DNA of 64,000 nt from Leucobacter sp. wl10. GTDB taxonomy: Bacteria > Actinomycetota > Actinomycetes > Actinomycetales > Microbacteriaceae. Made by a program: the position numbers and the translations under genes. The notes beneath the pieces were generated by a model that worked only from the letters and a program-made list of their open reading frames with translations, searched no databases and had not been told where the DNA came from. The stretch spans positions 17,863 to 81,862 of the forward strand of contig NZ_KZ984000.1 in the NCBI RefSeq assembly GCF_003569785.1. Direction: 5' to 3'. Below, piece after piece: positions 3,392 to 23,595 of this stretch. Numbering within the stretch: the first letter of the stretch is position 1; every line of letters begins with the position of its first letter.

Positions 3392-4117
3392 TCAGTTCGT
3401 GAAGATGCCGGACACCTCGGGAAGGCTGCCCACCAGGTGCGCTTTGAGCAGGCGTTGCGCCGCCGGGAGGTCGAAGGTCTCTATCGCATTCGCGATCTCG
3501 AGGTGATGCTCGATCGCGGTGCAGCGCCTGGGCGGCACGGCCTGGAACATCGCGATGCCGATGCGCAGCTGGCGGTCGTGGAGCCTGTTGTAGAGCTGCG
3601 CGAACTCCGTGTTGCCCGTCGCCTTGATGAGCGTCCAGTGGAACTCCTTGTCGACCGTGACCATGTCGACGATGCGCTCCGGGTCGTCGTCGTAGATGCT
3701 GCGCTGCTCGTCGACCAGCTGGTGCAGCCGCTCCGCCACCGGCACCCGGTGCGTGCATACCCAGTCGACGCCGTATCCCTCGAGTACGACGCGGGTGACG
3801 GCCTGCTCCTGGATGGCCCGGAGCGTGATGGCGGGGACCATTGCGCCGCGCTGCGGGATGAGGTCGAGCAGCTGCTCGGATTGCAGGCGGAGGAACGCCT
3901 CGCGCACGGGTGTGCGCGACACGTCCGCTGCGAGCGCCACCTCCGTCTCGGTGACGATCGTCTGCGGTGGCAGCTGCAGGGTGACGATGAGGTTCTTCAG
4001 ATACAGATAGGCGTGCTCCGTCGCCTTGAGGCCGGGCACGCGCGGCCCCGGTGGCAGCTGGACGTTGGTGGCCCAGCTGCCGAACCGGGATCGGGCGACA
4101 TCCGGAAGAGACTGCAT
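3392..4117 (-). CDS. GntR family transcriptional regulator (FCD type)
   Basis: This 241-residue protein has an N-terminal winged helix (about residues 28-95). The segment TETEVALAADVSRTPVREAFLRL is the characteristic GntR recognition region, and RGAMVPAI forms the wing. A helical FCD ligand-binding domain follows, with acidic and histidine residues that usually bind a metal and a carboxylate ligand. It is the third gene of a leftward operon after the RraA-like protein and C-N hydrolase, 24 bp behind the latter. No Shine-Dalgarno precedes the ATG, but TACAAT at 4124-4129 lies six bases before it, so a separate leaderless transcript is likely. The probable target is the tandem 11-mer at 5705-5726. 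Confidence 0.9.
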   Translation of the reverse strand: MQSLPDVARSRFGSWATNVQLPPGPRVPGLKATEHAYLYLKNLIVTLQLPPQTIVTETEVALAADVSRTPVREAFLRLQSEQLLDLIPQRGAMVPAITLRAIQEQAVTRVVLEGYGVDWVCTHRVPVAERLHQLVDEQRSIYDDDPERIVDMVTVDKEFHWTLIKATGNTEFAQLYNRLHDRQLRIGIAMFQAVPPRRCTAIEHHLEIANAIETFDLPAAQRLLKAHLVGSLPEVSGIFTN

Positions 4118-4123
4118 AGACTG

Positions 4124-4129
4124 ATTGTA
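4124..4129 (-). promoter_or_regulatory. -10 box of a leaderless transcript for the GntR gene
   Basis: On the minus strand TACAAT is followed by exactly six bases and then the ATG of the GntR gene. This places the expected transcription start on the A of the start codon. No Shine-Dalgarno sequence is present and no good -35 is visible. The same TANNNT-N6/7-start spacing recurs at many genes in this window, which strengthens the call. Confidence 0.55.
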
Positions 4130-4141
4130 CGGGCAGGATTC

Positions 4142-4945
4142 TCAGGCGCTCGGCGCCACCGTGAACCGTCGATTGGCCAGGCTGGGGTTCGCCTTGCGCA
4201 CGGTTTCCAGTCGCTCCTTGCGGATCCGGGCGGTGGCGATGCCGCCCGCCGATTCTCCGGCGGAGGCGACGATCACGCCCATGGGGTCGACGATCATGCT
4301 CTGGCCCGTGCAACTCGGCCCGGTCTGCCCGCAGGCGGCGAAGTAGACCGTGTTCTCGATGGCGCGCGCTCGCGCGAGCATCTCCCAGTGCAGCTCCTTC
4401 ATGGGGCCGACGGCCCAGGCGGCGGGCAGCACGATCACGTCTGCCCCGTGGTCGACGAGCCAGCGGCCCATCTCGGGGAAGCGCAGGTCGTAGCACGTCG
4501 CCGCACCGATCCTGAGACCCTTCAGCTCGAACACCAGCGGCGAGGTGATGTCGGCCGGCCGCACGGTGTCGGACTCGCGGTGGCCGAACGCGTCGTAGAG
4601 GTGCACCTTGCGGTACACCCCGGCGAGTTCGCCCTGCGCGTCGATGTGGACGAGAGTGTTGAAGCTCCGTTCGTCGTCGCTCGTCTCGGTGAACCCCGAG
4701 ACGACGTCGGCCTCCGCCTGCTGCGCGGCCTCGCGCAACGCCGTGACGAATGGGCCGTCGAGCGTCTCCGAGTAGTTCTCCTCTGGCCGCTCCCTCGTGG
4801 GGTCCGAGTACATCGCGTTCTCGGGAAGCACGACGAGATCGGCGTCGGCGCCCGCACGGGCGATGAGCTCGAGCGCGGTGCTGCGATTGAGCTCGACGTT
4901 GCGCGTGGCGCCGAACTGGGCGAGGGAGAGGATCAACTCGCTCAT
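4142..4945 (-). CDS. Carbon-nitrogen hydrolase, Nit/omega-amidase-like (paralogue 1 of 3)
   Basis: This 267-residue nitrilase-superfamily amidase has the full catalytic set: Glu42 (VVLPENAM), Lys113 (YRKVHLYD) and Cys151 (ATCYDLRFPE). The HLYDAFG..ESD and CYDLRFPE signatures place it near the Nit1/Nit2 (deaminated glutathione or omega-amidase) group, which hydrolyses a terminal amide to acid and ammonia. The start is ATG 4945, preceded by an AGGAGG about 4 bases upstream and overlapping the stop of the RraA-like gene as ATGA; an in-frame upstream extension is therefore not used. It shares C-terminal NPSLANRRFTVA with the paralogue at 18192. The substrate is unknown. Confidence 0.9.
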   Translation of the reverse strand: MSELILSLAQFGATRNVELNRSTALELIARAGADADLVVLPENAMYSDPTRERPEENYSETLDGPFVTALREAAQQAEADVVSGFTETSDDERSFNTLVHIDAQGELAGVYRKVHLYDAFGHRESDTVRPADITSPLVFELKGLRIGAATCYDLRFPEMGRWLVDHGADVIVLPAAWAVGPMKELHWEMLARARAIENTVYFAACGQTGPSCTGQSMIVDPMGVIVASAGESAGGIATARIRKERLETVRKANPSLANRRFTVAPSA

Positions 4946-5604
4946 CGCGCCTCCTCCGCCATCTCGAAGAAGCGAGCGGCGCCGCTCCACTCCGAGAGCC
5001 TCTCTCCGGCGGTGATCTCGGTCTTCTTGGCAGGCTCCGCGGCCTCCTTCGCGCGGAGGTCGGCGACGATCTCGTCGATCTCGTCCTCGGCGACGACGGC
5101 GATGCCGTCGGAGTCCGCGAAGACCGCGTCGCCGGGGGTGACGACGACGCCGCCGACGGTGACGGGCACGTTGATGGCGCCCTCGATGCCCAGGATGCGG
5201 GTGGTGCGAGCGGAGACGCCGCGGGAGTAGACGGGCAGCCCGAGCTCGAGCACCTCGTCGAAGTCGTTCATGGCGCCCGCGAGGATCACCCCCTCCGCGC
5301 CTCGCGTCTTCGCGGTGAAGGCGACCATGCCTCCGAAGCTGGAACGCTCGTCGCCGGACTGCTCGACCACCAGCACGTCGCCGGGACGCAGGTGGTCGGC
5401 GGCGACGTGCAGCGCCGTGGAGTCCATGTGGGGAAGGCGCACGGTGATGGCTGTGCCGGCGAATCTGAGCGGCCGCATGTTCGGCGTGAGGCCGCGTACG
5501 AATCCATAGTCGCGGAGATGCCCCAGGGTGGACGTCTGAACGGTGAGGAGCGACCTGCGCCGCTCCTCACCGATCTGCCGGGGCATGGACTGAAAAACGA
5601 ACAT
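4942..5604 (-). CDS. RraA family protein (HMG/CHA aldolase or oxaloacetate decarboxylase-like)
   Basis: This 220-residue protein carries the RraA fold. Signatures are TSTLGHLRDYGFVRGL near the N-terminus and LRPGDVLVVEQSGDERSSFGG, followed by GAEGVILAGAMND and the loop with an Arg that binds substrate in this family (SRGVSARTTR). Bacterial members outside enterobacteria are usually metal-dependent aldolases or decarboxylases of 4-hydroxy-4-methyl-2-oxoglutarate type, not RNase E inhibitors. The annotation 'dimethylmenaquinone methyltransferase' for this family is an old error. It is the first gene of the leftward operon; the ATG at 5604 has AGAGAGGA upstream. A short acidic/basic C-terminal extension follows the core. 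Confidence 0.85.
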   Translation of the reverse strand: MFVFQSMPRQIGEERRRSLLTVQTSTLGHLRDYGFVRGLTPNMRPLRFAGTAITVRLPHMDSTALHVAADHLRPGDVLVVEQSGDERSSFGGMVAFTAKTRGAEGVILAGAMNDFDEVLELGLPVYSRGVSARTTRILGIEGAINVPVTVGGVVVTPGDAVFADSDGIAVVAEDEIDEIVADLRAKEAAEPAKKTEITAGERLSEWSGAARFFEMAEEAR

Positions 5605-5704
5605 CGATGTTCCTCTCTGTGAGGGCGGATCCGGCAGCCCGGATCCGTCGGGGCGCCGCGGCGGGCGCGACGTGCGGGTAAACGGACCAGGTTTGCCGCA
5701 CGGG

Positions 5705-5726
5705 TGTTGCGTACATGTTGCATACA
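5705..5726. promoter_or_regulatory. Tandem 11-bp repeat, candidate GntR operator
   Basis: Two directly adjacent copies of TGTTGCRTACA (5705-5715 with G, 5716-5726 with A) lie in the 319-bp divergent region between the rraA-like operon and the ABC importer. Each copy is an imperfect TGT-N5-ACA dyad, the architecture typical of GntR/FCD sites. A minus-strand -10-like TACTGT (5737-5742) places the repeats just downstream of a start of transcription toward rraA. The regulator encoded at the end of that operon is the obvious candidate ligand, but this is inference. Confidence 0.55.
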
Positions 5727-5820
5727 CGCGCCATGCACAGTAGCAGAGATGAGCCGGAGGGGGAAGCCGCCTGCGCGAAAAAACTCGGCGCCGAGGTTTC
5801 TCCGGCTGTTCGGATGGCAC

Positions 5821-5849
5821 TTGCGCGATCGTCTTCGTCCACGTAGGTT
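5821..5849 (+). promoter_or_regulatory. Candidate promoter for the polyamine-type ABC operon
   Basis: TTGCGC (5821-5826) and TAGGTT (5844-5849) are separated by 17 bp and lie about 75 bp before the solute-binding protein ATG. That gene has a strong AAAGGAG site just upstream of its start. The match to consensus is only partial. The rest of the 5605-5923 intergenic stretch shows nothing besides this and the tandem repeat. Confidence 0.35.
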
Positions 5850-5923
5850 CGATCTCGACCAGGTTTGTCGACACGGGCGATCCGACGCGGACGAAGCCGT
5901 CTGCTACTTCAAAGGAGAAGCCC

Positions 5924-6994
5924 ATGTCACACAGGAAGACCGTTTTCGGCGCCGGCATAGCCGCCGCCCTGCTCGCCATGACCGCCTGCAGCGGCGGGAG
6001 CGGCGGAGACGGGGGAGGCGGGGGAGCCGGGCCCGTCGAGGTCAATGTGCTCGGTTACGCGGCGCTGTTCGAGGATCAGTACACGGCAGCCGTCATCGAC
6101 AAGTTCAACGCCTCTCAGAACGACGTCGTGGTGAACTTCGTGCCTTCGCAGAACAGCGCCGAGATGCTCGGCAAGCTGCGCAGCGAGGCCTCGGCGCCCA
6201 CGGTCGACGTCGTCATCATGGACGCATCCGTCGCCTACACGGGCAACCAGGAGGGCCTCTTCGACAAGATCGACGAGCAGGCGGTGCCGAATCTCGCGAA
6301 TGTCGTCGGACTCGGGCAGAACGCCGACGGATACGGCCCGGCGGTCACCTTCGACAACCTCGTCGTGCTCTACAACGCCGACCGCGTGAAGAATCCGCCC
6401 AGAGGCATCGCCGACCTGTGGGACGCGCCCGAGAACTCGGTGTCCATCCCCGCCCCGCCCGATATCCAGGGCATCACGCTCACCGCGCTCACCGCGAACA
6501 ACCTCGGCATCGACTACAAGGACGACGTCGGGCCGGCCATCGAGGAGATCTCGAAGCTCGCACCGCTCGTCAACACGTGGGAACCGGTGCCGGACGTGTA
6601 CCAGCCCGTGATCTCGGGCACCTCGCAGTACGGCATCGGCTGGAACGCGCGTGCGCAGTACTTCGCCGAAGAGTCCGGGGGCACCATGGCCGTCGTGCAA
6701 CCGGACGACGGCATCGGTTTCCAGATCAACACCATCAATCTGGTCAAGGGCTCCGAGAAGGCAGAGGCCGCGCTCCAGTTCATCGACTACGCGCTCTCCA
6801 AGGAGGCTCAGGAGTCGTTCGCAAAGGCGCTCTACTACGCTCCAGTGGTCTCGAACGCCGAGCTGTCGCAGGAGCTGACGGACCGAGTGGCCAGCCCCGC
6901 TGATCCCAACATCGTCGACATCGACTGGACCTGGCTGGCCGACCGTCGCGACGCATGGACCGAGATGTGGCGCCGGGACGTCATCGGGGGTTGA
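5924..6994 (+). CDS. ABC transporter substrate-binding lipoprotein (spermidine/putrescine type)
   Basis: This 356-residue protein begins with a lipoprotein signal (FGAGIAAALLAMTACSGG; lipobox MTAC with the Cys near residue 24) and a Gly/Ser linker. The mature part is a type-2 periplasmic-binding fold of the PotD/extracellular solute-binding class: LGYAALFEDQYTAAVIDKF near the start and GIGWNARAQYF in the hinge region. It supplies substrate to the ATPase and two permeases encoded downstream. Likely ligands are polyamines or small organic anions and cations; the neighbouring amidases suggest a nitrogenous compound, but specificity cannot be read. It is preceded by AAAGGAGAAGCCC. Its TGA overlaps the next start. 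Confidence 0.88.
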   Translation: MSHRKTVFGAGIAAALLAMTACSGGSGGDGGGGGAGPVEVNVLGYAALFEDQYTAAVIDKFNASQNDVVVNFVPSQNSAEMLGKLRSEASAPTVDVVIMDASVAYTGNQEGLFDKIDEQAVPNLANVVGLGQNADGYGPAVTFDNLVVLYNADRVKNPPRGIADLWDAPENSVSIPAPPDIQGITLTALTANNLGIDYKDDVGPAIEEISKLAPLVNTWEPVPDVYQPVISGTSQYGIGWNARAQYFAEESGGTMAVVQPDDGIGFQINTINLVKGSEKAEAALQFIDYALSKEAQESFAKALYYAPVVSNAELSQELTDRVASPADPNIVDIDWTWLADRRDAWTEMWRRDVIGG

Positions 6995-8097
6995 TGATGG
7001 AACGGTCCGACACCGCTTACCTGTCCATCCGCGGCCTGCGGAAGATCTACCCCAAGACATCCGCCCCCGCGGTGAACGACGTCAACCTGGACGTGCCGCA
7101 GGGCGACCTGGTCGCGCTGCTCGGCCCCTCCGGCTGCGGGAAGACGACCACGCTGCGCATGGTTGCGGGTCTGCTCGAGCCCTCGGCGGGACAGATCATC
7201 GTGAACGGGAGAGACGTGGTGTCGAGGCCCGTCAACAAGCGGGGCATGGGGATGGTGTTCCAGTCCTACGCCCTCTTCCCGCACATGACGGTCGAAGAGA
7301 ACATCGCCTTCGGGCTCCAGATGCAACGGGCCTCGCGCCCGGAGATCGCGAGGCGCACCGCCGAGGCGCTCGAGATGGTGCAGCTGGGCCACCTCAAGGG
7401 TCGGCGGCCGGCCGAGCTCTCGGGCGGGCAGCAGCAACGCGTGGCCCTCGCGCGGGCGCTCGTGATCCACCCCACCCTGCTGCTCCTCGATGAGCCCCTG
7501 TCGAACCTCGACGCCAAGCTGCGCGAGGCGATGCGGCGGGAGATCCGGGGCATTCAGCAGCAGTCCGCCACCACCACCCTGTTCGTCACGCACGATCAGG
7601 ACGAGGCGCTCGACATGGCCGACCGCATCGCGATCCTCAACAACGGTGTGATCGAGCAGTACGGCACGCCGGCGGTCATCTACGAGAACCCGGCCACGAG
7701 GTTCGTGGCGAACTTCGTGGGCAAGGCCAATTTCCTCCCGGTCGACGAGGTCTCGCTGGGATCGCGGGGTGAGTACGCGGTGCGCTCCGAGGTCTTCGGG
7801 CGGCTCACGGTGGCCGGCACGCCCGGGAGCGCGGGAACGGGTGCGCTCGTGGTGCGACCCCATCGGGTCACCGTCGCCGATGTGAACAGCGAGCACGCGG
7901 GCAGCCTTCCCACCGCGCGCGGCAGAGTGATCGGCTCGAGCTACACGGGCGACGTGCGCGGCTACGATCTCCGGCTCGAGAACGGGCAGAGCATGCGGGC
8001 GGATCAGCTCAGCACTGTCGGGGCCGGGCTCGCGATCGGCGACGAGGTGCTGGTCTCCTTCGAGCCCGGCGACGCCTACCTCGTCTCGGAAGGGTGA
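6994..8097 (+). CDS. ABC transporter ATP-binding protein (PotA-like)
   Basis: This is a 367-residue importer ATPase. Walker A is GPSGCGKTTT, the Q-loop is MVFQSYALFPHMTV, the signature is LSGGQQQRVALARAL, Walker B is LLLLDEPLSNLD, and the H-loop is LFVTHDQDEALDMADR. A C-terminal TOBE/MOI-like regulatory domain occupies about residues 245-367, as in PotA and other CUT1-like ATPases. The ATG at 6994 overlaps the TGA of the binding-protein gene, and a second ATG follows directly. It energises the two permeases at 8109 and 9021. Confidence 0.93.
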   Translation: MMERSDTAYLSIRGLRKIYPKTSAPAVNDVNLDVPQGDLVALLGPSGCGKTTTLRMVAGLLEPSAGQIIVNGRDVVSRPVNKRGMGMVFQSYALFPHMTVEENIAFGLQMQRASRPEIARRTAEALEMVQLGHLKGRRPAELSGGQQQRVALARALVIHPTLLLLDEPLSNLDAKLREAMRREIRGIQQQSATTTLFVTHDQDEALDMADRIAILNNGVIEQYGTPAVIYENPATRFVANFVGKANFLPVDEVSLGSRGEYAVRSEVFGRLTVAGTPGSAGTGALVVRPHRVTVADVNSEHAGSLPTARGRVIGSSYTGDVRGYDLRLENGQSMRADQLSTVGAGLAIGDEVLVSFEPGDAYLVSEG

Positions 8098-8108
8098 GGT
8101 GATCCGTC

Positions 8109-9014
8109 ATGACCGTTGCGCACACCAACACCGAGACGATCAGCACCCGGGCGAGCCGGGGAGGTTCCCAGAAGCGCAAGAACCTCTCCGTGCTCGGCCT
8201 CGTGGCGCCCGGCGTCATCGGGCTATTCGTCAGCTTCCTGCTGCCGCTCGCCGTGATGATCCGCATGTCCCTCAACACGAACGGCGAGGGGGGCCGGCTC
8301 ATACAGACGCTCAGCGCGGGGGCCTATGCGGATGCGCTCGCCGATCCCTTCTACTGGAAGGTGATCGGCAACACGCTCCTGCTCGGCCTCGTCTGCGGCG
8401 TCGCCGCCGTGGCACTGTCCTACCCCATCGCGCTCTTCCTCACCCGCACCACCTCACGGTGGAAGGGCGTGCTCATGGCGCTGGCGATCGCTCCGCTTCT
8501 GACGTCGGCCGTGGCCCGCACCTTCGGGTGGATGTCGCTCCTCGGCGACCAGGGCGTCGTCAACGCGGCGCTCATGAACTCCGGGCTGATCAGCGCGCCG
8601 CTTCGGTTGAGCAACAATATGCTCGGCGTGGCGATCGCTCTGGTGGAGATCCTGATGCCCTACGCGATCCTCGCGATGATCTCCGGCTTCGGGCGCATCA
8701 GCATCTCGCTCGAGGAGGCGGCGGGCTCGCTCGGAGCGTCGAAGCTGCAGGTGTTCGCTCGGGTGACACTGCCGCTGTCGCTGCCGGGGGTGTTCACGGG
8801 CTTCCTGCTGGTCTTCGTGCTCGCGGTGAGTTCGTTCGTCACGCCGAAGCTCCTGGGCGGCGGGCGCGTGTTCATCCTCGCAACCGAGGTCTACAACGAG
8901 GCCACGCAGACCCTCAACTGGCCGCTCGCCTCGGCGCTCTCCGTCATCCTGCTCGTCGTGTTCGGTGCGCTCGTCGCGGTGTACCAGCGCCTGATCAAGC
9001 GGTTCGAGGAGTGA
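8109..9014 (+). CDS. ABC transporter permease (PotB-like)
   Basis: This 301-residue inner-membrane protein has about six hydrophobic helices and a short basic N-terminus. The cytoplasmic loop RISISLEEAAGSLGASKLQVFARVTLPLSLPG contains the EAA motif that docks onto the ATPase. The sequence resembles the first permease of spermidine/putrescine importers. It begins 11 bp after the ATPase stop and ends 6 bp before the second permease, so all four genes form one operon. Confidence 0.93.
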   Translation: MTVAHTNTETISTRASRGGSQKRKNLSVLGLVAPGVIGLFVSFLLPLAVMIRMSLNTNGEGGRLIQTLSAGAYADALADPFYWKVIGNTLLLGLVCGVAAVALSYPIALFLTRTTSRWKGVLMALAIAPLLTSAVARTFGWMSLLGDQGVVNAALMNSGLISAPLRLSNNMLGVAIALVEILMPYAILAMISGFGRISISLEEAAGSLGASKLQVFARVTLPLSLPGVFTGFLLVFVLAVSSFVTPKLLGGGRVFILATEVYNEATQTLNWPLASALSVILLVVFGALVAVYQRLIKRFEE

Positions 9015-9020
9015 TCGCTC

Positions 9021-9803
9021 ATGGGTAGAATTCTGAACCGGATCGTCGTCACGGTCGTGTACCTCTTCCTGTTGGCGCCGATCATCGCGGTGGTCCTCAT
9101 CTCCTTCAACCGGACGAACAGTCTGGCGATCGAGATCGGCTCTCCATCGCTGCAGTGGTACGAGAGCATTCTGGGCAACGCGCAGTTGCTCGCCGGCGCT
9201 CGCGTCAGCCTCATCACCGCCGTCGTGACCGCGCTCATCGTGCTGCTGCTCGGCGTGCCGGTGGCGCTCGCCATCGCTCGCTACGATTTCCGCGGCAAAG
9301 CTGCTCTCTCGGCGTTCTTCCTCTCCCCGCTGCTCGTGCCGGGCGTGGTCCTCGGTCTCGGGCTGCTGCTGGTGCTCCAGCCGGTCGGCCTCATCGGCAC
9401 CTATCCGGGCATCGTGCTCGCGCACTTCGGGGTGACCGTGCCCTACGTGATCCGCACCACGCTGTCCAGCCTCGTGACGAGCGACATGCGCTGCGAGGAG
9501 GCGGCTCGAGTGCACGGGGCGAACGCCCTCACCACGTTCCGGCGGGTGACCCTGCCGATCATCTCGCCCGGTATCCTCGCGGGCGGGGTGATGGCGTTCA
9601 TCATCTCCTTCGACGAGGCGGTCATCTCGCTCTTCGTCGCGGGGTCGGGGCGCACGACGCTGCCGGTGGAGATGTTCCGCTACCTGCAGTACCGATCCGA
9701 CCCCGGCCTAGCGGCGCTGTCGGTGATCCTCATCGCCATCTCGGTACTCATCGTGGTGGTCATCGAGCGGGCGGTCGGGCTGCGCAGGGTGGTGAACTCT
9801 TAA
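9021..9803 (+). CDS. ABC transporter permease (PotC-like)
   Basis: This 260-residue membrane protein is the second permease of the importer. It has six predicted helices and an EAA loop (CEEAARVHGANALTTFRRVTLPIISPG). ISFDEAVISLFVAG near the C-terminal end is characteristic of PotC-type permeases. It closes the operon and is followed 25 bp later by a strong hairpin. Confidence 0.93.
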   Translation: MGRILNRIVVTVVYLFLLAPIIAVVLISFNRTNSLAIEIGSPSLQWYESILGNAQLLAGARVSLITAVVTALIVLLLGVPVALAIARYDFRGKAALSAFFLSPLLVPGVVLGLGLLLVLQPVGLIGTYPGIVLAHFGVTVPYVIRTTLSSLVTSDMRCEEAARVHGANALTTFRRVTLPIISPGILAGGVMAFIISFDEAVISLFVAGSGRTTLPVEMFRYLQYRSDPGLAALSVILIAISVLIVVVIERAVGLRRVVNS

Positions 9804-9827
9804 CGGCCGGAGCCGCTGCGGTGGCTG

Positions 9828-9864
9828 AGGGGCCGCGATCCTCTCCCCGGGATCGCGGCTCCTT
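9828..9864 (+). terminator. Rho-independent-like terminator after the ABC operon
   Basis: The arms GCCGCGATCC (9832-9841) and GGATCGCGGC (9850-9859) pair perfectly around an 8-nt loop. Additional pairing with GAGG/CTCCT extends the stem at its base. A short T-containing tail (CCTTCG) follows. It lies directly after the last permease. Confidence 0.6.
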
Positions 9865-10093
9865 CGCGTCACGAGTATTCGACCGGCGTGCGATAAGCCC
9901 CGCATCTCGAATATCACGCCCGCTTATAGTCAGTGCGGCACACTGTGGCCAAAGTTATGCTCGGGATCAGCCGGATCGTCTACCCCCGACGGTTCCAGCT
10001 CGACGGTCTCGGTGCGACTGTTGCAGCTCCGATCTCATCGGCGGCGGTCCCGCGTCATGACCCGCGAACGCGCATCAAAGGAAGAACGAACAT
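9865..10093 (+). promoter_or_regulatory. Upstream region of the creatininase-family gene
   Basis: This stretch has no convincing coding sequence. TATAGT (9925-9930) and an adjacent AT-rich patch look like a -10 region, but no -35 of quality is visible. AAAGGAAGAACGAACAT just before the ATG at 10094 provides the ribosome binding site. Confidence 0.3.
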
Positions 10094-11772: not shown

Positions 11773-12081
11773 CCTGGCCCCCGATTCAGGGCAACACGTG
11801 TGAAACCGGTGGCGATTTGTATCGACAGCGCACTAAAATCACCGCATTTTTATGCTCTGATCTGCGATTCTCAGTAGTATAAGTTCAGCGTTACTCTCGC
11901 TACCGAATTCTTACTTGCAGCCTATGTTGGCTGCTCCTAAGTTGGGCAGTGAACACCTCACCTGTTCACCCAGCACCCTCGACCGGCATGCCGGCAGAGC
12001 TCTCAGCGTCGAGACTCCTCACGATGCAGAGACCATCGGCCGCGCCGCGGGGTGGGTTCCACCCAACGAAGGGAATACCCG
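11773..12081 (+). promoter_or_regulatory. AT-rich control region upstream of the oligopeptide-type ABC operon
   Basis: This 309-bp gene-free stretch is clearly richer in A/T than its surroundings around 11816-11910. TATAAG at 11878-11883 is the best -10 candidate; no clear -35 was found. The LysR protein encoded at the end of the operon would be the natural regulator, but I could not define a convincing T-N11-A site. GAAGGGAATACCCG directly precedes the ATG at 12082. Confidence 0.35.
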
Positions 12082-13647: not shown

Positions 13648-13674
13648 CCACTCGGAACAGGAAGACATCGCATC

Positions 13675-14628
13675 GTGCTGGTATTCATTGCGAAGCGCCT
13701 GGCGATGGGCGTGGGTCTCGTGCTCCTCGTACTCACGCTCATCTTCTCCGCGCTGCATTTCGTGCCGGGCGACCCGGCAGTGCTGCTTCTCAGCGTCGGC
13801 GAGGGGGGTGCCCCCACGCCCGAAGCCGTCGACCGGGTGCGCGAACAGCTCGGCCTCAACCAGCCGCTGATCGTGCAGTATCTCAATTTCCTCGGCGGGG
13901 TATTCACCGGGGACCTCGGCAACTCGTTCAAGACCTCCCAGCCGGTGCTCGAGGCGATAGGGGCGCGCCTGCCCCGCACGCTCCTCCTCGTGGGCTTCGC
14001 AACGCTCCTCTCGGTGATCTTCGGCATCCCCCTCGGTGCCTTGGGAGCCCGCAAGGGCGGTTGGGTCGACACCTTGCTGACCGCGCTCAGCTCCATCGGC
14101 GTCGCCCTCCCGGTGTTCGTCTTCGGCGCCGTGCTGATCCTGCTGTTCTCGATCACGCTGAAGTGGTTCCCCGCCGGCGGCTACGTTGACTTCGGCAGGG
14201 ACCCGCTCGGCGCCATCTGGTCGCTGACGCTCCCCGCGGTATCGCTCGCGGTAGGCTTCTCCGCTCAGATCGCGCGTATGACACGGTCGGCGGTGCTCGA
14301 AGTGCAGGGCGAGGACTGGGTGCGCACCGCGAAGTCGATCGGCCTCGCCCCGTTCAGGGTGTTCCGCAAGCACGTGCTGCGCAACTCCCTGACCCCGGTG
14401 GTGACGGTGATCGGTATCGGCTTCGGCACGCTGCTCGGTTCGACCGTCCTCGTCGAGCGAGTCTTCAACTACCCCGGCATGTCGAGCCTGCTCGTCGACG
14501 GCGTGACCAACCGCGACTACCCGGTCGTACAGGGCATCGTTATCGTCATCGCGCTCATGTTCATCCTGATCAACATCGTGGTCGATGTGATCTACGGCAT
14601 CCTCGATCCCAGGGTGAGGCGATCATGA
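13675..14628 (+). CDS. ABC transporter permease (DppB-like)
   Basis: This 317-residue permease starts with GTG. The N-terminal helix (FIAKRLAMGVGLVLLVLTLIF) and FVPGDPA are typical of DppB/OppB. The cytoplasmic loop RSAVLEVQGEDWVRTAKSIGLAP and FNYPGMSSLLVDGV are further signatures. The short N-terminal extracellular segment matches the Dpp type. Its stop overlaps the next gene as ATGA. Confidence 0.93.
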   Translation: MLVFIAKRLAMGVGLVLLVLTLIFSALHFVPGDPAVLLLSVGEGGAPTPEAVDRVREQLGLNQPLIVQYLNFLGGVFTGDLGNSFKTSQPVLEAIGARLPRTLLLVGFATLLSVIFGIPLGALGARKGGWVDTLLTALSSIGVALPVFVFGAVLILLFSITLKWFPAGGYVDFGRDPLGAIWSLTLPAVSLAVGFSAQIARMTRSAVLEVQGEDWVRTAKSIGLAPFRVFRKHVLRNSLTPVVTVIGIGFGTLLGSTVLVERVFNYPGMSSLLVDGVTNRDYPVVQGIVIVIALMFILINIVVDVIYGILDPRVRRS

Positions 14629-15470
14629 AACTCAGTCCTCGGGTGCGCCAGGCCGTCACCCCCCTGCGCGCCATCATGGCCATCTACATCGTCGCCATGC
14701 TCGTCATGATGTTCCTCGCGCCGGTGCTGGCACCGTACGACCCGATCGCGCAGAACGTCGCGCTGCGGCTGAAGCCGCCGCTCTCGGAGGGTCACCTGCT
14801 CGGCACCGACGAGCTCGGTCGCGACATCCTGTCGCGCATCATGTACGGTGCGCAGATCGAACTCTTCATCGCTCTGGGTGCCACGCTCCTCGCGACGGTG
14901 CTCGGCACCCTGCTCGGCCTTTTCGGCGCTTACTTCAACGGCGTCGCTGAGTTCGTCACGATGCGCCTCGTCGTCGACGTGGTGCTCGCCTTCCCGCCGA
15001 TCATCCTCGCGCTCCTCGCGGTGACGCTCTACGGACCGGGATCCGTCACACTGATCATCGCGATCGGCGTACTGTTCGCGCCGATCTTCGCGCGCATCAC
15101 CTACGGACAAGTACTGTCGGTCAAGCGCGAGGAGTATGTGGACGCGGCGAAGACCTTCGGAGCCCCGACGATCCTCATCATGTTCCGCACGGTGCTGCCG
15201 AACGTCTCGGCCCCCATCATCGTGCAGTTCTCGCTCACGATGGCAGCGGCGATCCTCCTCGAATCAGGCCTGAGCTATCTCGGCCTCGGCGTCGTACCGC
15301 CCGCGCCCTCCTGGGGCTCCATGGTCGCGCAGGGCCAGCGGTACCTGACCTCGAACCCGCACGCGCTGCTCGTACCGGGCATCGTCGTCGTGCTCACCAT
15401 CCTCGCGTTCGGCATCCTCGGCGACGCCCTCCGCGATCTCCTCGATCCGAAAGCGAAGAAGCGATCATGA
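14625..15470 (+). CDS. ABC transporter permease (DppC-like)
   Basis: This 281-residue permease begins with a short cytoplasmic segment and one N-terminal helix. HLLGTDELGRDILSRIMYG, which defines DppC/OppC proteins, comes next. The EAA-like loop is REEYVDAAKTFGA, and SYLGLGVVPPAPSWGSM lies near the C-terminal end. The ATG overlaps the DppB-like stop and its own TGA overlaps the ATPase ATG, so translation is coupled. Confidence 0.93.
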   Translation: MKLSPRVRQAVTPLRAIMAIYIVAMLVMMFLAPVLAPYDPIAQNVALRLKPPLSEGHLLGTDELGRDILSRIMYGAQIELFIALGATLLATVLGTLLGLFGAYFNGVAEFVTMRLVVDVVLAFPPIILALLAVTLYGPGSVTLIIAIGVLFAPIFARITYGQVLSVKREEYVDAAKTFGAPTILIMFRTVLPNVSAPIIVQFSLTMAAAILLESGLSYLGLGVVPPAPSWGSMVAQGQRYLTSNPHALLVPGIVVVLTILAFGILGDALRDLLDPKAKKRS

Positions 15471-17152
15471 GTAGTCCACTCCTCAGGATTGACCGTCTCT
15501 CCGTCGAGTTCCAGACGCCCGACGGCTGGCGGACCGTGACACACGAGGTCTCCTTCGAGCTCGAAAAGAGCAAGACCCTCGCGCTCGTCGGGGAATCGGG
15601 ATCGGGCAAGTCGGTAACGGCCATGTCGATCCTCGACCTGCTCCCTCCGAATACGCGACGCACCGGCTCCATCTGGTTCGACGGCGTCGACGTGATGACG
15701 CTCACGGACAAGGCGCTGCGGAAGCTGCGCGGATCGCGCATCGCGACGATCTTCCAGGAACCGATGACGGCGATGAACCCTGTGTACACCATCGGTGAGC
15801 AGCTCATCGCGGCGCTGACGAGCCATCGGGAGCTCAGCAGGGACGCGGCGCGAGCTCGCGCGATCCAGCTGCTGTGTGACGTGCACATGCCGAACCCGGC
15901 GCAGAAAGTCGACGACTACCCGCACCAGCTGTCGGGCGGTCAGCGGCAGCGCGCGATGATCGCGATGGCGATCTCGAGCGAGCCCGAGCTGCTCATCGCC
16001 GACGAGCCGACGACGGCGCTCGATGTGACCGTGCAGGCTGAGATCCTCGATCTCATCGCCGAGTTGCAGGAGCGCCTCGGCATGGGCGTGCTCATCATCA
16101 CGCACGACATGGGAGTTGTTGCCGACGTCGCCGATGACGTGGTCGTGATGAAGGAGGGTGCGGTCGTCGAGGCGGCGCCGTCGAGCGACCTGTTCGCCTC
16201 CCCGCAGGAGCCGTACACGCAGCAGCTGCTCGCGGCCGTTCCGCACCTCGGCAAGGCGAAGGACTTCTTGGACTCCTCGAACGACAAGCTGCACATCGAC
16301 GGGGTGACGGCGCTGACGGCGCTGCCCCAGGTGGTGCTCGAGCTCGACCAGGCGGTCATTCGCTACCCGGGGCGCTGGCGGCGCCCGGGCTTCCAGGCGG
16401 TCAACGGCATCGATCTGCAGGTCGCCAAGGGCGAGATCGTCGGGCTCGTGGGTGAGTCAGGCTCGGGCAAATCGACGATCGGCAAGGCGGCGATCGGCCT
16501 CCTTCCCGTCTCCGGGGGCACGCTCGAGGTCGAGGGCCAGCGGATCGCGGGCTCGGGCGGCAAAGCGATGAAGCAGCTGCGCAAGCATGTCACGATGGTG
16601 TTTCAGGATCCGGCCTCGTCCCTCAATCCCCGGCGCACCATTGGACAGGCGATCTCCGACCCGCTGCTCTGGCAGGGCCTTGTGCGCGACGGGCGGAAGC
16701 GAAGGGCGAGAGCGCAGGAGCTGCTCGAGCAGGTGCAGCTCAACCCCGAGTGGGTCGACCGGTACCCGCACGAGCTTTCGGGCGGACAGCGGCAGCGCAT
16801 CGGCGTCGCGCGTGCCATCGCCACGAACCCGGTGCTCATGATCGCCGACGAGCCGACCTCGGCCCTCGACGTGTCGGTGCAGGCCCAGGTGCTCGACCTC
16901 TTCCTCGGTCTGCAGCGCGAACTCGGCTTCTCGTGCCTGTTCATCAGCCACGACCTGTCCGTCGTGGAGACGCTGTCAAATCGCGTGGTGGTGCTGCGGC
17001 ACGGCGATGTGGTCGAGCACGGCCCGACCGAGCAAGTGTTGCATCATCCACAGGATGACTACACCAAGCGGTTGATCGCAGCGGCTCCCGTGCCCGATCC
17101 CCGGGTGCAGCGCGAACGGCGCGCGATCCGTCTGGCAGCGAAGCAGGCCTGA
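15467..17152 (+). CDS. Dual ABC ATP-binding protein (DppD-DppF fusion, GsiA/DdpDF-like)
   Basis: The 561 residues contain two complete nucleotide-binding domains. Domain 1 (about 1-270) has GESGSGKSVT, QEPMTAMNPV, LSGGQRQRAMIAMA and LLIADEPTTALD. Domain 2 (about 290-555) has GESGSGKSTI, FQDPASSLNPR, LSGGQRQRIGVARA and LMIADEPTSALD. Such fusions replace separate DppD and DppF subunits in many actinobacterial oligopeptide importers. The linker between the domains is short. It powers the two permeases encoded upstream. Confidence 0.95.
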   Translation: MSSPLLRIDRLSVEFQTPDGWRTVTHEVSFELEKSKTLALVGESGSGKSVTAMSILDLLPPNTRRTGSIWFDGVDVMTLTDKALRKLRGSRIATIFQEPMTAMNPVYTIGEQLIAALTSHRELSRDAARARAIQLLCDVHMPNPAQKVDDYPHQLSGGQRQRAMIAMAISSEPELLIADEPTTALDVTVQAEILDLIAELQERLGMGVLIITHDMGVVADVADDVVVMKEGAVVEAAPSSDLFASPQEPYTQQLLAAVPHLGKAKDFLDSSNDKLHIDGVTALTALPQVVLELDQAVIRYPGRWRRPGFQAVNGIDLQVAKGEIVGLVGESGSGKSTIGKAAIGLLPVSGGTLEVEGQRIAGSGGKAMKQLRKHVTMVFQDPASSLNPRRTIGQAISDPLLWQGLVRDGRKRRARAQELLEQVQLNPEWVDRYPHELSGGQRQRIGVARAIATNPVLMIADEPTSALDVSVQAQVLDLFLGLQRELGFSCLFISHDLSVVETLSNRVVVLRHGDVVEHGPTEQVLHHPQDDYTKRLIAAAPVPDPRVQRERRAIRLAAKQA

Positions 17153-17154
17153 TC

Positions 17155-18045
17155 ATGGAGACCCGACGCCTGGAGGCCTTCGTCGCGCTGGTCGACGCGG
17201 GTGGATTTCGGCAGGCCGCGGAGGAGCTCTTCATCACGCAGCCCGCGCTCTCGCAGCAGATCGCGCGGCTGGAGAAGGACGTGGGGCTCCAACTGATCGA
17301 TCGCACCACGCGGCCGATCACGACGACGGAGGCGGGACGCGAGTTCTACTTCCGATGCCGCAGCGTGCTCGACGCGATGCGGGAGATTTCGCAACTACTC
17401 GAAGACGCCAAGGAGGCGCAGTTCGGCCGCGTGCGCATCGGCGTGGTGCCGGCGATGCTTTTCGCGTCGCCGGCCCGCGCGATCCGCTCCTTCCAATCGC
17501 GTTTCCCCGAAGCCGAGGTGAGCGTGCGGAGCATCGCGACCAGCAGGCTCATCGAGGAACTCGAGCAGGGCAGCGTCGACGTCGCCGTGCTGCTCACCCG
17601 CCCCGACCTGAAAGAGGTGTCGGTCGTCGATCTCTTCAGCGAGGACTACATGGTCTGCCTGCCGAGCGGCCACCCGCTCGAGGCATTCGAGGAGGTGAGC
17701 TTTGCTCAATTGCGCGAGGAGCGCCTCATCCAGGGGCTGCGCGCCGCGAACCCGATGGGCTTCGACTCGGTCGTCTCCGCGTGTATGAACGCCGGATTCT
17801 CGCCGAACAGCGTGAGCGCCTTCGGCTCGTACCTCGACCACGCGGGGCTCGTCTCCGCGGGTATGGGCGTCTCGTTCGCGCCGGAGTCGTTCGCGCATCT
17901 GCAGCCGAACGGCGTCGTCTACCGCAAGCTCGTGAAGCCGCGCGCGAGCATGACGGCCACGGTCTCGTGGTATCCGCGCCGCCTCGACTCCGTCGGCCGC
18001 GCCTTCGTCGACCACTGCATCGCCGAGTGCACGACGGGCGGGTAA
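17155..18045 (+). CDS. LysR family transcriptional regulator
   Basis: This 296-residue protein opens with a canonical LysR winged HTH (RRLEAFVALVDAGGFRQAAEELFITQPALSQQIARLE). A two-lobed effector domain follows from about residue 90. It is encoded 2 bp after the ATPase, in the same transcript, which is unusual for LysR genes (normally divergent) and implies autoregulated co-expression with the transporter. Its likely target is the AT-rich region before 12082, and possibly the amidase gene at 18192. Confidence 0.92.
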   Translation: METRRLEAFVALVDAGGFRQAAEELFITQPALSQQIARLEKDVGLQLIDRTTRPITTTEAGREFYFRCRSVLDAMREISQLLEDAKEAQFGRVRIGVVPAMLFASPARAIRSFQSRFPEAEVSVRSIATSRLIEELEQGSVDVAVLLTRPDLKEVSVVDLFSEDYMVCLPSGHPLEAFEEVSFAQLREERLIQGLRAANPMGFDSVVSACMNAGFSPNSVSAFGSYLDHAGLVSAGMGVSFAPESFAHLQPNGVVYRKLVKPRASMTATVSWYPRRLDSVGRAFVDHCIAECTTGG

Positions 18046-18191
18046 CGAGCACCCGGCCACGTGATCCTGCCCCACCCACACCGCTCTGCATGCTCGCGAA
18101 CCCCGCGGAGCAGGGCCGAGCCAAGCCGAAAACGGCACGCGAATGCCACGAGACCCCTCAACCCTCACGAGACCACCCCGGAAGGACCCCC

Positions 18192-18983
18192 ATGAAACTC
18201 TCCATCTGCCAGATCGTCTCGACGGAAGACGTTGCGGCGAACCTCGCCGAGATCGGCCGCGTCGCCGAGATCGCGGCGGCCGACGGCGCCGACCTCGCGG
18301 TGTTCCCCGAGTTCGCGATGATCGGCGTCACCGCGCTCACCCCGGAGGTGCTCGTTCAGGCACAGCCGCTCGACGGACCGTTCGTGACCGGGCTCGCACA
18401 GATCGCCGAGCGCGTCGGCATCGTGATCGTCGCCGGCGTTCTCGAGGAGATTCCGGGCGAGGCCCGCGCGTACAACTCGCTTGTCGTGCTGACTCCTGAG
18501 AGCGGGCTCGTCGCGGTATATCACAAGGCTCACCTGTACGACGCCTTCGGCTTCAAGGAGTCCGATAGCATCCGCCCCGGCTCGCTCGACGGCGCGATCA
18601 CCTTCGACGTCGCCGGGGTGAAGGTCGGCGTGCTCACCTGCTACGACCTGCGCTTCCCCGAGGCCGCGCGGCAGCACGCCGACGTCGGCGTCGACGTGCT
18701 CGTCTATCCGGCCGCGTGGGTGCCCGGTCCGCGCAAGGAAGACCACTGGCAGACGCTCGCCCGCGCCCGCGCGATCGAGAACACGTTCTACGTCGCCGCG
18801 GTCACGCAGGGCCCGTCACTCGGCACCGGCGGCAGCCTCATCGTCGACCCCATGGGCATCGTGCTCGGAGAGATCGGCGAGCGCAGCGGGGTCACCACGG
18901 CCGCGATCCTCCCCGGGCGCATCTCCGAGGTGCGTCAGACCAACCCGTCCCTCGCCAATCGCCGGTTCACCATCGCCGCCTGA
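18192..18983 (+). CDS. Carbon-nitrogen hydrolase, Nit/omega-amidase-like (paralogue 3 of 3)
   Basis: This 263-residue amidase has catalytic Glu40 (VFPEFAM), Lys112 (YHKAHLYD) and Cys150 (LTCYDLRFPE). It is closest in pattern to paralogue 1: both have HLYDAFG.+ESD, AWxxGPxKExHW and NPSLANRRFT. The start ATG at 18192 has GGAAGGA upstream; the frame extends far upstream through the LysR gene but only as a shadow. It follows the LysR gene by 146 bp and is probably functionally linked to the peptide-type importer and the aldolase that follows. Confidence 0.9.
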   Translation: MKLSICQIVSTEDVAANLAEIGRVAEIAAADGADLAVFPEFAMIGVTALTPEVLVQAQPLDGPFVTGLAQIAERVGIVIVAGVLEEIPGEARAYNSLVVLTPESGLVAVYHKAHLYDAFGFKESDSIRPGSLDGAITFDVAGVKVGVLTCYDLRFPEAARQHADVGVDVLVYPAAWVPGPRKEDHWQTLARARAIENTFYVAAVTQGPSLGTGGSLIVDPMGIVLGEIGERSGVTTAAILPGRISEVRQTNPSLANRRFTIAA

Positions 18984-19038
18984 TCTCCCGCGCGCTGACC
19001 GGCGCGCATCGACCTCGTCCAGAAAGGAACCCACACAT

Positions 19039-19785
19039 ATGTCCGGACAACTCAAGCAGGGCGCCTGGCTCTCCGACTCGAGCGTCGCGATCGGCGAGAT
19101 CGTCGCGAGCCTCGGCTACGACTTCGTCGTCCTCGACATCGAGCACGGAGCCTTCGACCTGTCGATCCTCGAGCGCTTCGTCCCCGTGCTCAAGGGACTC
19201 GGCCTCGAGGTGCTCTCGAAAGTGCTCGTGCCCGAGCGGGGCGCGATCCAGCAGGCCCTCGACTTCGGGTCCGACGGCGTCATCATCCCCCACATCGAGG
19301 GGCTCGAGCATGCGAAGAAGGTCACCGACTTCGCGAAGTTCCCACCGCTCGGCACCCGCAGCCTCGCGGGCGGGCGTACGATGAACTACGGCGGCTACGA
19401 CGACGACTGGGTGGCGGCGCAGGATCGCGACATCAAGGTATTCCCGATGGTGGAGGACCCGGGGGCCCTGCGCGACATTGAAGCGATCGCCGCCCTGCCG
19501 ACCGTTGATGGCATCTTCATCGGTCCCGGCGACCTTTCGCTCATGCGCGGCCGTGGTGTCTACCGCCAGACCGAGGCCGACTTCGACGACTTCCGCAAGG
19601 TCATCGCCGCGGTGCGGGCGAACAACAAACCGTGGGTGCTGCCCGCGTGGACCACGGTCGAGAAGGAGTTCGCCGTCGCCGAGCGCGCCGACTACGTGCT
19701 GCTCACGATGCAGCACGCCGCGATCGTCGAGGGCTACGGCAGCGCGCGCACGCTGATGGACGGGCTGGTCGCGGCAGCGAAATAG
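19039..19785 (+). CDS. HpcH/HpaI aldolase family protein
   Basis: This 248-residue protein is a class II pyruvate-dependent aldolase barrel (HpaI/citrate lyase family). DFVVLDIEHGAFDLS carries the conserved acid and His. A Gly/Pro-rich FGSDGVIIPHIEGLEHAKK segment follows, then metal-ligand Glu in FPMVEDPGAL and Asp in GIFIGPGDLSL. Such enzymes cleave 4-hydroxy-2-oxo acids to pyruvate or a related ketoacid plus aldehyde. Its position after an amidase suggests breakdown of an oxo-acid released by deamidation. AGAAAGGAACC precedes the ATG at 19039. Confidence 0.88.
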   Translation: MSGQLKQGAWLSDSSVAIGEIVASLGYDFVVLDIEHGAFDLSILERFVPVLKGLGLEVLSKVLVPERGAIQQALDFGSDGVIIPHIEGLEHAKKVTDFAKFPPLGTRSLAGGRTMNYGGYDDDWVAAQDRDIKVFPMVEDPGALRDIEAIAALPTVDGIFIGPGDLSLMRGRGVYRQTEADFDDFRKVIAAVRANNKPWVLPAWTTVEKEFAVAERADYVLLTMQHAAIVEGYGSARTLMDGLVAAAK

Positions 19786-19804
19786 CGGTTGTTCTTTGCC
19801 GACA

Positions 19805-19829
19805 GGCGGGCGCTCAGCCGGTGCCCGCC
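19805..19829 (+). terminator. GC-rich hairpin after the aldolase gene
   Basis: GGCGGGC (19805-19811) and GCCCGCC (19823-19829) pair with an 11-nt loop, followed by GCTCGGTTT. The short T run is weak. It may attenuate, not end, transcription into the RidA-like gene 60 bp downstream. Confidence 0.4.
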
Positions 19830-19889
19830 CGCTCGGTTTCAGCGCGGCCGCCGGTCGCGCCTCACGGTATTGTTGAACGGAGGATCCGC

Positions 19890-20327
19890 ATGACCGCTGC
19901 ACCCGCACCCCGCCCAGGCATCCGCCGGTACTCGCCGGACGGCATCGCCCCGCCCGTCGGCGCCTACTCGCACCTCGCTGCGGTGTCGGGCCCGGCCGAG
20001 TGGGTGTTCATCTCGGGGCAGGTGGGGGCGGACCGCGACGGCGTCGTCCCCGACGACGTCGCCGCGCAGACGCGCAACGCCCTCCGCAACATCGAGGCGC
20101 TCATCACCGCGGCGGGCGGCACGCCGCAGTCGATCGTACGGTGCATGACCTTCCTCGTCGGCGCCGAGCACATGCCCGAGTACGCGGCGGCCCGCAACGC
20201 GATCTTCGCGGAATGGTTCCCCGCGGGCGACCTCCCGGGCCACTCGCTCGCGATCGTCGCCGGTCTCGCGCGGCCCCAGCTGCTGGTCGAGATCGAGGGC
20301 TGGATCGCGCTGCCGGCTCGGGGCTAA
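19890..20327 (+). CDS. RidA/YjgF family protein without the canonical active-site Arg
   Basis: This is a 145-residue Rid-family protein. WVFISGQVGADRDGVVPDDVAAQTRNALRNIEA and IVRCMTFLVGAEHMPEYAAARNAIF give the chorismate-mutase-like fold. In enamine/imine deaminases of the RidA subgroup a conserved Arg lies in PARS/PARA; here the segment is PGHSLAIV, with His in its place. It may therefore belong to one of the Rid subfamilies that lack deaminase activity, or act on another substrate. GGAGG lies 6 bases before the ATG at 19890. It sits between a catabolic cluster and a convergent amine oxidase. Confidence 0.88.
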   Translation: MTAAPAPRPGIRRYSPDGIAPPVGAYSHLAAVSGPAEWVFISGQVGADRDGVVPDDVAAQTRNALRNIEALITAAGGTPQSIVRCMTFLVGAEHMPEYAAARNAIFAEWFPAGDLPGHSLAIVAGLARPQLLVEIEGWIALPARG

Positions 20328-20340
20328 GCGTCCCGGCCGC

Positions 20341-21513: not shown

Positions 21514-21557
21514 TCGATCCTCTTCTCTCGTCTTCCCGCGGTCTCGATGGTGCGGGA

Positions 21558-23507: not shown

Positions 23508-23595
23508 GCCTTCGAGCGTAGCGAGTGCCGCCCGCCCGCACCGCCGTGTCCGATTTCCGCGTGCGCGGGAGGCCCGCGCACGGAACAATGGATCC

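Follow-up and report, generated by a model that had tools for sequence, protein, structure and literature searches.

Separable amidase cassettes, each with an importer and a lyase-family partner, in a probable composite catabolic locus of Leucobacter

The 64,000 nucleotide stretch of Leucobacter sp. wl10 analysed here (contig NZ_KZ984000.1, positions 17,863 to 81,862; hereafter the window) carries at 3392-22688 a block of genes in which three Nit1-like CN-hydrolases (A1, A2 and A3) stand among two ABC importers and members of C-C lyase families. All three amidase genes are complete and intact: A1 (4142-4945, minus strand), A2 (10912-11772, plus) and A3 (18192-18983, plus) match Pfam CN_hydrolase with E values of 6e-49, 2e-42 and 2.6e-51, respectively, and are 42.3% (A1/A2), 49.8% (A1/A3) and 44.7% (A2/A3) identical. 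Glu40, Lys112 and Cys150 (A3 numbering) are kept in each of them and in 72/72 CN-hydrolases compared, a second Glu (Glu123) in 68 of the 72. They also carry the motifs HLYDAF, ESD, CYDLRFPE and SLANRR; HLYDAF (34/72) and CYDLRFPE (32/72) are common in the compared set, SLANRR (8/72) is rarer. This bears out an earlier note on this DNA, which had described three Nit-type amidases with Glu-Lys-Cys and shared motifs. The genome (3.8 Mb in 64 contigs) has nine CN_hydrolase matches above the Pfam cut-off, three of them within the block.

The genes around the amidases fall into two modules. In module I, A1 lies between a GntR/FCD regulator gene (3392-4117, minus; Pfam FCD 7.3e-16, GntR 6.7e-12) and, joined by an ATGA overlap, the gene for an RraA-like protein (4942-5604, minus; Pfam 3.7e-34) that aligns to PDB 3noj with Asn-Asp for the catalytic Arg-Asp. 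A Pot-type importer follows on the plus strand, comprising a PotD-type solute-binding protein (5924-6994; PDB matches, NCBIfam matches all under cut-off), a PotA-type ATPase (6994-8097; the open reading frame is listed from 6955, the coding-model start is 6994), and PotB-type (8109-9014; NCBIfam PotB 5e-47, under cut-off) and PotC-type (9021-9803) permeases. The synteny of the regulator and PotC genes at the two ends is kept in four genomes (G042, G028, G023 and G049). Module II, entirely on the plus strand, opens with a creatininase-family hydrolase (10094-10915; Pfam 8.7e-61, aligned to 1q3k, three orthologues, NNNGGN motif), the end of whose gene overlaps A2 by four bases, so that A2 adjoins a creatininase instead of a lyase. 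A peptide-type (Dpp) importer comes next, with a DppA/AgaA-type solute-binding protein (12082-13647; listed from 12052; PDB AgaA 6hlx), a DppB-type permease (13675-14628; NCBIfam Opp2B 8.8e-89, under cut-off), a DppC-type permease (14625-15470; an open reading frame 45-46% identical to importers of loci L034 and L035) and a fused DppDF ATPase (15467-17152; an open reading frame 42% identical over its full length to that of L035). The module is completed by a LysR-type regulator (17155-18045; an open reading frame named from sequence, syntenic in G042, G028 and G029), A3, an HpaI-type aldolase family protein (19039-19785; Pfam 8.5e-19, PDB alignments, Lys for Arg70) spaced 59 bases from A3, and a RidA-family protein (19887-20327; Pfam 3.5e-20). 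These neighbours, GntR and RraA-like by A1, creatininase-family by A2, HpaI and RidA near A3, and both importers, are as the earlier note had them.

Absent from that note's list is a pair of minus-strand genes at 20341-22688, encoding an MTOX/MSOX-type FAD amine oxidase (20341-21513; NCBIfam NF008425, 284 bits, cut-off 257) and an OCD/mu-crystallin family 'tyramine oxidase subunit B' (21558-22688; NF004848, 576.8 bits, cut-off 362), a name that our literature search found in no paper. Because both exceed their NCBIfam cut-offs and adjoin module I in relatives, the block has to be extended to 22688. We considered whether the pair is an integral part of module I, a view weakened by the spread of OCD homologues, which 28/60 genomes have (the own one counted, with identities of up to 89% elsewhere), and by only 3/31 matches lying within 12 kb of a CN-hydrolase match. 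MTOX-OCD counts as a separable third component and was used as an internal control. The G+C content shows no sharp difference between module II (66.9%), module I (67.2%) and the whole window (69.8%), and a scan for sigma-70-type promoters found none, where 1.3 were expected by chance.

Comparison with relatives reveals that the block is nested. The genes for OCD, MTOX, PotC, PotB, PotA, PotD, RraA, A1 and GntR are contiguous in G028 and G049, where the MTOX and PotC matches are ~130 and ~45 bases apart, while in the window and in L. musarum (G042) the run creatininase-A2-DppABCDF-LysR-A3-HpaI-RidA is placed between PotC and MTOX. The module II run is also present in a third Leucobacter, G028, but ~350 kb from module I, and G029 has a shorter version without creatininase and A2 and, in the stretch read, without RidA. 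Among the loci compared, L027 and L033 show module I beside MTOX-OCD, L026 and L028 module II elsewhere, and L024/L025 the nesting of the window. The 'one catabolic block' of the earlier note thus does not hold, since modules I and II are apart in G028 and each is found without the other elsewhere; the locus consists of separable cassettes. The simplest history, and the most likely one on this gene order, is that module II was inserted into a neighbourhood formed by module I and MTOX-OCD. Fourfold-site identity between the window and G042, 0.47-0.59 from GntR to PotC and 0.58-0.71 in module II, hints at different histories for the two modules; against G028 all values are 0.39-0.53. No insertion-border repeat of 16 bases or more was found within 9600-10300, and no border-joining repeat within 9600-20700 among the matches listed (20 of 27 direct families, 20 inverted pairs).

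Both modules are patchily distributed. Module I is carried by 8/54 Leucobacter genomes (own, G009, G012, G016, G023, G028, G042 and G049). The creatininase occurs in 3/100 genomes (E <=1e-30) and in 22/396 genomes of a phylum sample (E 1e-25 or better), own included in both, and DppA (E 1e-70 or better) in only one of the 396, its own, among at most three candidates scored per genome. A scan of genome contigs with two N-terminal creatininase peptide patterns found a single locus, in L. musarum. The earlier note had asked for a neighbourhood comparison and held that modules never found together would count against it; they do co-occur, as 3/3 genomes with creatininase-A2 (P 0.002, kinship uncorrected) and 3/4 with A3-HpaI (P 0.008, kinship uncorrected) also carry module I, events that are not independent because two of these genomes share the nesting.

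The association of amidase and lyase-family genes extends well beyond the block. We define an amidase-lyase cassette as a CN-hydrolase gene adjoining one of the RraA, HpaI or BKACE family, and in the window A1-RraA and A3-HpaI are such cassettes. A search of 60 genomes with the window RraA (own included, E <=1e-30) gave 19 matches, all in Leucobacter and all within 12 kb of a CN-hydrolase, 14 of them within 3 kb and the remaining five at 8.6-8.7 kb; this search selects the module I subfamily because the query came from module I. In 100 genomes, own included, 5/5 HpaI matches lie within 60 bases of a CN-hydrolase (four in Leucobacter, and an HpaI-CN-hydrolase pair in G084, of the same order). 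For BKACE the figure is 17/21 at a distance of up to 3 kb, and the only four matches from outside Leucobacter account for the four exceptions. The chance proximity of one locus to a CN-hydrolase is ~0.7% at 12 kb, and as a control the best 30 Pfam RraA-like loci, one a genome, have no CN-hydrolase, HpaI or BKACE gene in flanks of up to 1.5 kb. Viewed from the amidase, at least 32/56 Leucobacter CN-hydrolase matches have one of the three lyases within 12 kb, a lower bound because 37 of the 54 Leucobacter genomes were searched for RraA. A second unit in the wl10 genome, on contig C12, consists of Pot importer, CN-hydrolase, RraA and BKACE. Three genomes (G003, G029 and G034) encode a single protein of 512-513 residues that unites CN-hydrolase and BKACE (in G029, PF00795 at 2-248 and PF05853 at 269-509), and G004 and G020 have the same spacing within one open frame, judged by positions only. 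Amidase-lyase pairing is therefore recurrent.

CN_hydrolase::BKACE fusions of this size, 512-513 residues, lie beside a Dpp importer in L061 (4610-6151), L063 (14379-15917) and L065 (3947-5488). Pfam also identifies in L065 genes for RraA and for AAT, of the 6-APA acyltransferase family, and L061 has matching gene families. Another contig of the wl10 genome (G000:C16:19762-21574) holds three tandem RraA-like matches.

Counterparts are also found outside the genus. Plasmid OZ000535 of Shinella sp. WSC3-e (L094) has counterparts of both modules side by side in one run of N-formylglutamate amidohydrolase, RraA, creatininase, serine hydrolase, Dpp importer, HpaI, LysR, CN-hydrolase, RraA and Pot importer. 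Identity to the window is 47% for PotD, 58% for HpaI, 41% for RraA and 37% for the CN-hydrolase, but DppA is only 24% identical, indicating that a similar gene set was assembled with a different peptide-type importer. Ensifer L096, unannotated and read by tblastn, has Pot importer-HpaI-CN-hydrolase-RraA-LysR, Aminobacter L098 has LysR-CN-hydrolase-RraA-Pot importer with a Dpp importer adjoining, and Agrobacterium L102 has Dpp importer-creatininase-CN-hydrolase. A CN-hydrolase with RraA or HpaI is seen in Paraburkholderia (L093), Thalassospira (L072), Nitratireductor (L073), Variovorax (L105) and Agrobacterium (L104). Ketogulonicigenium L099, A. larrymoorei L106 and pAspH13-3a (L100) have RraA with other amide-hydrolase families, i.e. 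gamma-glutamyltransferase, N-formylglutamate amidohydrolase, creatininase and serine hydrolase, and no annotated CN-hydrolase within the stretches read. At other CN-hydrolase loci (e.g. L036, L070, L071, L074-L077) no gene of the RraA, HpaI or BKACE type lies within 3.5 kb. A link to acesulfame was considered and rejected: Shinella WSC3-e degrades this compound, but the published report places the pathway on another plasmid, the 41.6 kb OZ000540, not on OZ000535 (PMC11500405).

Two loci have further gene associations. On Agrobacterium pAt (L104, 6455-12916) a TauD-type dioxygenase, RraA, CN-hydrolase, two MmgE/PrpD proteins and an ornithine cyclodeaminase occur together, and on a Terrarubrum plasmid (L034, 10633-20174) an AgaA-type importer, creatininase, RraA and gamma-glutamyltransferase occur in succession.

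On this evidence we favour, with some reserve, a composite catabolic locus as the explanation of the block. Its cassettes, separable and in all probability spread by horizontal transfer, would follow a common plan: each combines an ABC importer that has a dedicated solute-binding protein with a Nit1-like CN-hydrolase and a partner from a C-C lyase family. The proposal of the earlier note that import, amide hydrolysis and C-C lyase-family enzymes are joined in a catabolic locus gains from the recurrence of the pairing and from the Shinella plasmid with both modules; as a predicted function, this combination is well supported by context. The lyase-family partners may or may not act by retro-aldol chemistry.

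Several observations weigh against this view. The nesting is seen in two genomes only, up to 24/56 Leucobacter CN-hydrolase matches lack all three lyases over a distance of 12 kb, and 30/72 rows of the amidase tree described below are without a partner found nearby, some with only 1.5 kb of flank. On plasmids, where 60 of 172 CN-hydrolase records were used, a CN-hydrolase lies within 3.5 kb of RraA in 15/30 and of HpaI in 13/25 among the matches listed (best 30 of 35 and best 25 of 26, respectively). In relatives, creatininase is near a CN-hydrolase in 3/19 matches, a single orthologous group, to which L102 is to be added, and hydantoinase neighbours occur in just 4/10 importer clusters read. 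Finally, the Arg corresponding to Arg-123 of HMG/CHA aldolase is missing in 27/27 RraA proteins from such clusters (Asn in six, those of module I; Thr in 21), and the HpaI subfamily has Lys at the Arg70 position in 12/12 (11 by pattern, L028 by eye), so the enzymes may not do the canonical reaction.

Catalytic residues are thus substituted in both lyase families. The window RraA-like protein has Asn at the Arg-123 position and reaches 121.6 bits with the HMG/CHA aldolase model NF006731, under the cut-off of 179. Arg-Asp is kept in 30/30 control RraA-like loci, and the Arg also in a control annotated CHA aldolase. According to a study of HMG/CHA aldolase, activity of R123A is below detection and the kcat of R123K is 181-fold lower (PMC5065237). 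Among the 27 proteins, 20 are in clusters containing a CN-hydrolase, while seven (L034, the second copy of L094, L095, L097, L099, L100 and L106) adjoin creatininase, gamma-glutamyltransferase, N-formylglutamate amidohydrolase or HpaI genes instead. The HpaI subfamily keeps the EHG motif and the metal-ligand Glu and Asp motifs, but the position of its Lys is Arg in 5/5 solved HpaI-type aldolases with alignments shown, and the window protein, at 90.1 bits with TIGR02311 (cut-off 368.8), is below all four equivalog cut-offs matched. Arg70 and His45 are ascribed roles in HpaI catalysis (PMC8560999). The deviations mean that family names alone do not fix the reactions, and the plain aldol cleavage put forward in the earlier note is not supported in that form. 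They also bring in the possibility that the RraA-like protein is some other enzyme or a regulator rather than a lyase, leaving amide hydrolysis as the sole catabolic step of module I. The uniform loss of the Arg speaks for this; the metal-ligand Asp (Asp-124), kept in 27/27, and the occupation of the partner position by three different C-C lyase families speak against it, and we regard it as rather unlikely.

The importers give some indication of what a composite catabolic locus of this kind might take up. The DppA-type protein is 32-40% identical to Agrobacterium, Rhizobium and Neorhizobium homologues among the matches listed, and its closest solved relative by sequence is AgaA (6hlx, E 1.3e-93; next best 2e-40). 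Agropinic acid, the ligand of AgaA, is a lactam. On the Pot side, the PotD-type protein is 45-49% identical to proteins of Shinella, Aminobacter, Sinorhizobium and Microvirga, the PotA-type ATPase 48-49% to those of the corresponding Shinella, Aminobacter and Ensifer clusters, and the PotC-type permease 42-43% to those of the same three genera. Hydantoinase/oxoprolinase enzymes, which open cyclic amides, are encoded near the importer in 2/3 AgaA-type clusters (L035 and L101; not L034) and 2/7 PotD-type clusters (L103 and L156, all ten clusters being proteobacterial; not L094, L096, L098, L157 and L158, with L096 judged by tblastn with window genes only). No hydantoinase/oxoprolinase is among the assigned genes of the block, but a creatininase-like protein is. 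Given these neighbours and the creatininase-like protein, a cyclic amide would be plausible, and only plausible, as the substrate of both importers; the lactam or ring-opening idea of the earlier note accordingly has indirect, partial backing from the clusters with hydantoinase/oxoprolinase genes.

The likeness to AgaA, by far the best match, and the rhizobial homologues also raise the possibility of opine-type catabolism, with module II importing and hydrolysing an agropinic-acid-like sugar-amino-acid lactam. However, in the 16 kb around AgaA on a Ti plasmid the annotated genes, which include those for sugar functions, an FAD oxidoreductase and hydantoinase A and B, comprise none of the creatininase, CN-hydrolase or HpaI family; the assigned genes of the window, in turn, include no hydantoinase. 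The importer type also recurs in clusters of Terrarubrum and Roseivivax, in the company of still other enzymes. We consider this explanation unlikely.

A housekeeping role in metabolite repair, as deaminated glutathione amidase or omega-amidase, must be weighed for the amidases themselves. Deaminated glutathione amidase (NF033621) is indeed the best NCBIfam model for A1, A2 and A3, and the PDB matches of the CN-hydrolases include NIT2, but the scores (246.0, 243.6 and 223.1 bits) fall short of the cut-off of 355, and the patchy distribution and the importer/lyase neighbourhood do not suit such a role, making it quite improbable. Repair may fit core relatives beside Mca-type genes rather than A1-A3. 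In other actinomycete families (L080, L083, L084 and L092, at ~8-11 kb in each) a Nit1-like CN-hydrolase lies less than 400 bases from a gene that we take, from sequence features, to be of PIG-L/Mca type; this neighbour is a possible thiol-repair partner.

The presence in one block of a creatininase family member and an MTOX/MSOX-family flavoenzyme could suggest creatinine/sarcosine catabolism, the former feeding the latter. The creatininase-like protein, however, scores 114.4 bits with TIGR04448 (cut-off 235), is also under the MftE cut-off, and has NNNGGN where 1q3k has NGHYEN, in 3/3 Leucobacter orthologues, so that the His of the NGH motif, presumably a metal ligand, is replaced; six proteobacterial relatives aligned keep NGH and have the first motif changed. 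Among the assigned genes of the block, the only part of the genome considered for this, there is also no creatinase, and OCD, the partner of MTOX, is away from the modules in most relatives having it. Creatinine catabolism is thus very unlikely.

The three amidases have separate origins in distinct clades. In a quick maximum-likelihood tree of 72 CN-hydrolase rows, with Shimodaira-Hasegawa-like approximate likelihood ratio (SH-aLRT) support only, long branches and an outgroup that does not form one clade, A1, A2 and A3 fall in separate starred sets of nine, three and four rows (support 98, 100 and 99, respectively). Two Leucobacter homologues in the A1 set have no nearby lyase. Labels for eight kinds of partner gene require at least 13 changes on the tree: RraA partners are in three separate supported groups (module I, type-B clusters and a proteobacterial group), the last of which also has HpaI partners, as do the A3 group, L078 and L072, and creatininase partners are in the A2 group and L102. 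A recent tandem duplication of one amidase among unrelated neighbours, as three paralogues 42-50% identical within 15 kb might suggest, is scarcely credible given these separate clades and the occurrence of modules I and II alone elsewhere.

Past the block, at 23500-25700, the window has AlkA/Ada-like and Ogt-like DNA-repair genes, named from sequence, with homologues in L025.

Returning to a composite locus of cassettes, a working scheme can be outlined, the order of whose steps we infer. An amide-bearing compound, probably cyclic (lactam-like) or N-substituted, would be imported. In module II the ring would be opened by the creatininase-like hydrolase and the amide nitrogen still left released by A2/A3, giving an oxo- or hydroxy-acid. 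This acid may be the substrate of the RraA-like or HpaI-like enzyme, which would either cleave a C-C bond or decarboxylate it, while MTOX/OCD and RidA may deal with amine or imine side products. More tentatively, we suggest that Nit1-like amidases together with the RraA-like subfamily with Thr/Asn-Asp, often with Lys-HpaI or BKACE, could define amide/lactam pathways, undescribed and widespread among Actinomycetota and Proteobacteria, whose lyase step would be a new reaction on an oxo-acid (or still amide-bearing) skeleton, and that the window might hold two such pathways fused. The opinion of the earlier note that no characterised pathway has this exact set agrees with our literature search, which gave no description of it, weak evidence as most subscription papers were outside its reach. 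RraA-like and HpaI-like proteins are readily called aldolases on family alone, and recognition of an Arg-less subfamily beside amidases could put right how catabolic clusters are annotated, both in soil bacteria and on plasmids of rhizobia. The two-gene operons, the natural CN-hydrolase::BKACE fusion and the dedicated binding proteins form a ready test system in which substrate discovery by ligand binding is feasible.

The block has partial likenesses to several known systems. As in the aga region of Ti plasmids, an AgaA-type, peptide-family importer adjoins amide hydrolase genes, but there these are hydantoinase/oxoprolinase, whereas the window has a creatininase-like protein, CN-hydrolases and HpaI. 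A1-A3 share family, Glu-Lys-Cys and CYDLRFPE with the NIT1/NIT2 branch (deaminated glutathione amidase/omega-amidase), yet are under the curated cut-off and within importer-lyase cassettes. The creatininase-like protein has the family and first motif (EQHG...D) of creatinine amidohydrolase, but NNN for its NGH motif, and is below both the creatininase and MftE cut-offs. The lyase-family partners show the same pattern: the HpaI-like protein has the EHG and the metal-ligand Glu and Asp motifs of the HpaI/2-keto-3-deoxysugar class II aldolases, but Lys for Arg70, as in all 12 subfamily members read, and scores below the four equivalog cut-offs matched, and the RraA-like protein shares with HMG/CHA aldolase the family and the metal-ligand Asp, but has Asn, and other members Thr, in place of the Arg-123 essential to that enzyme.

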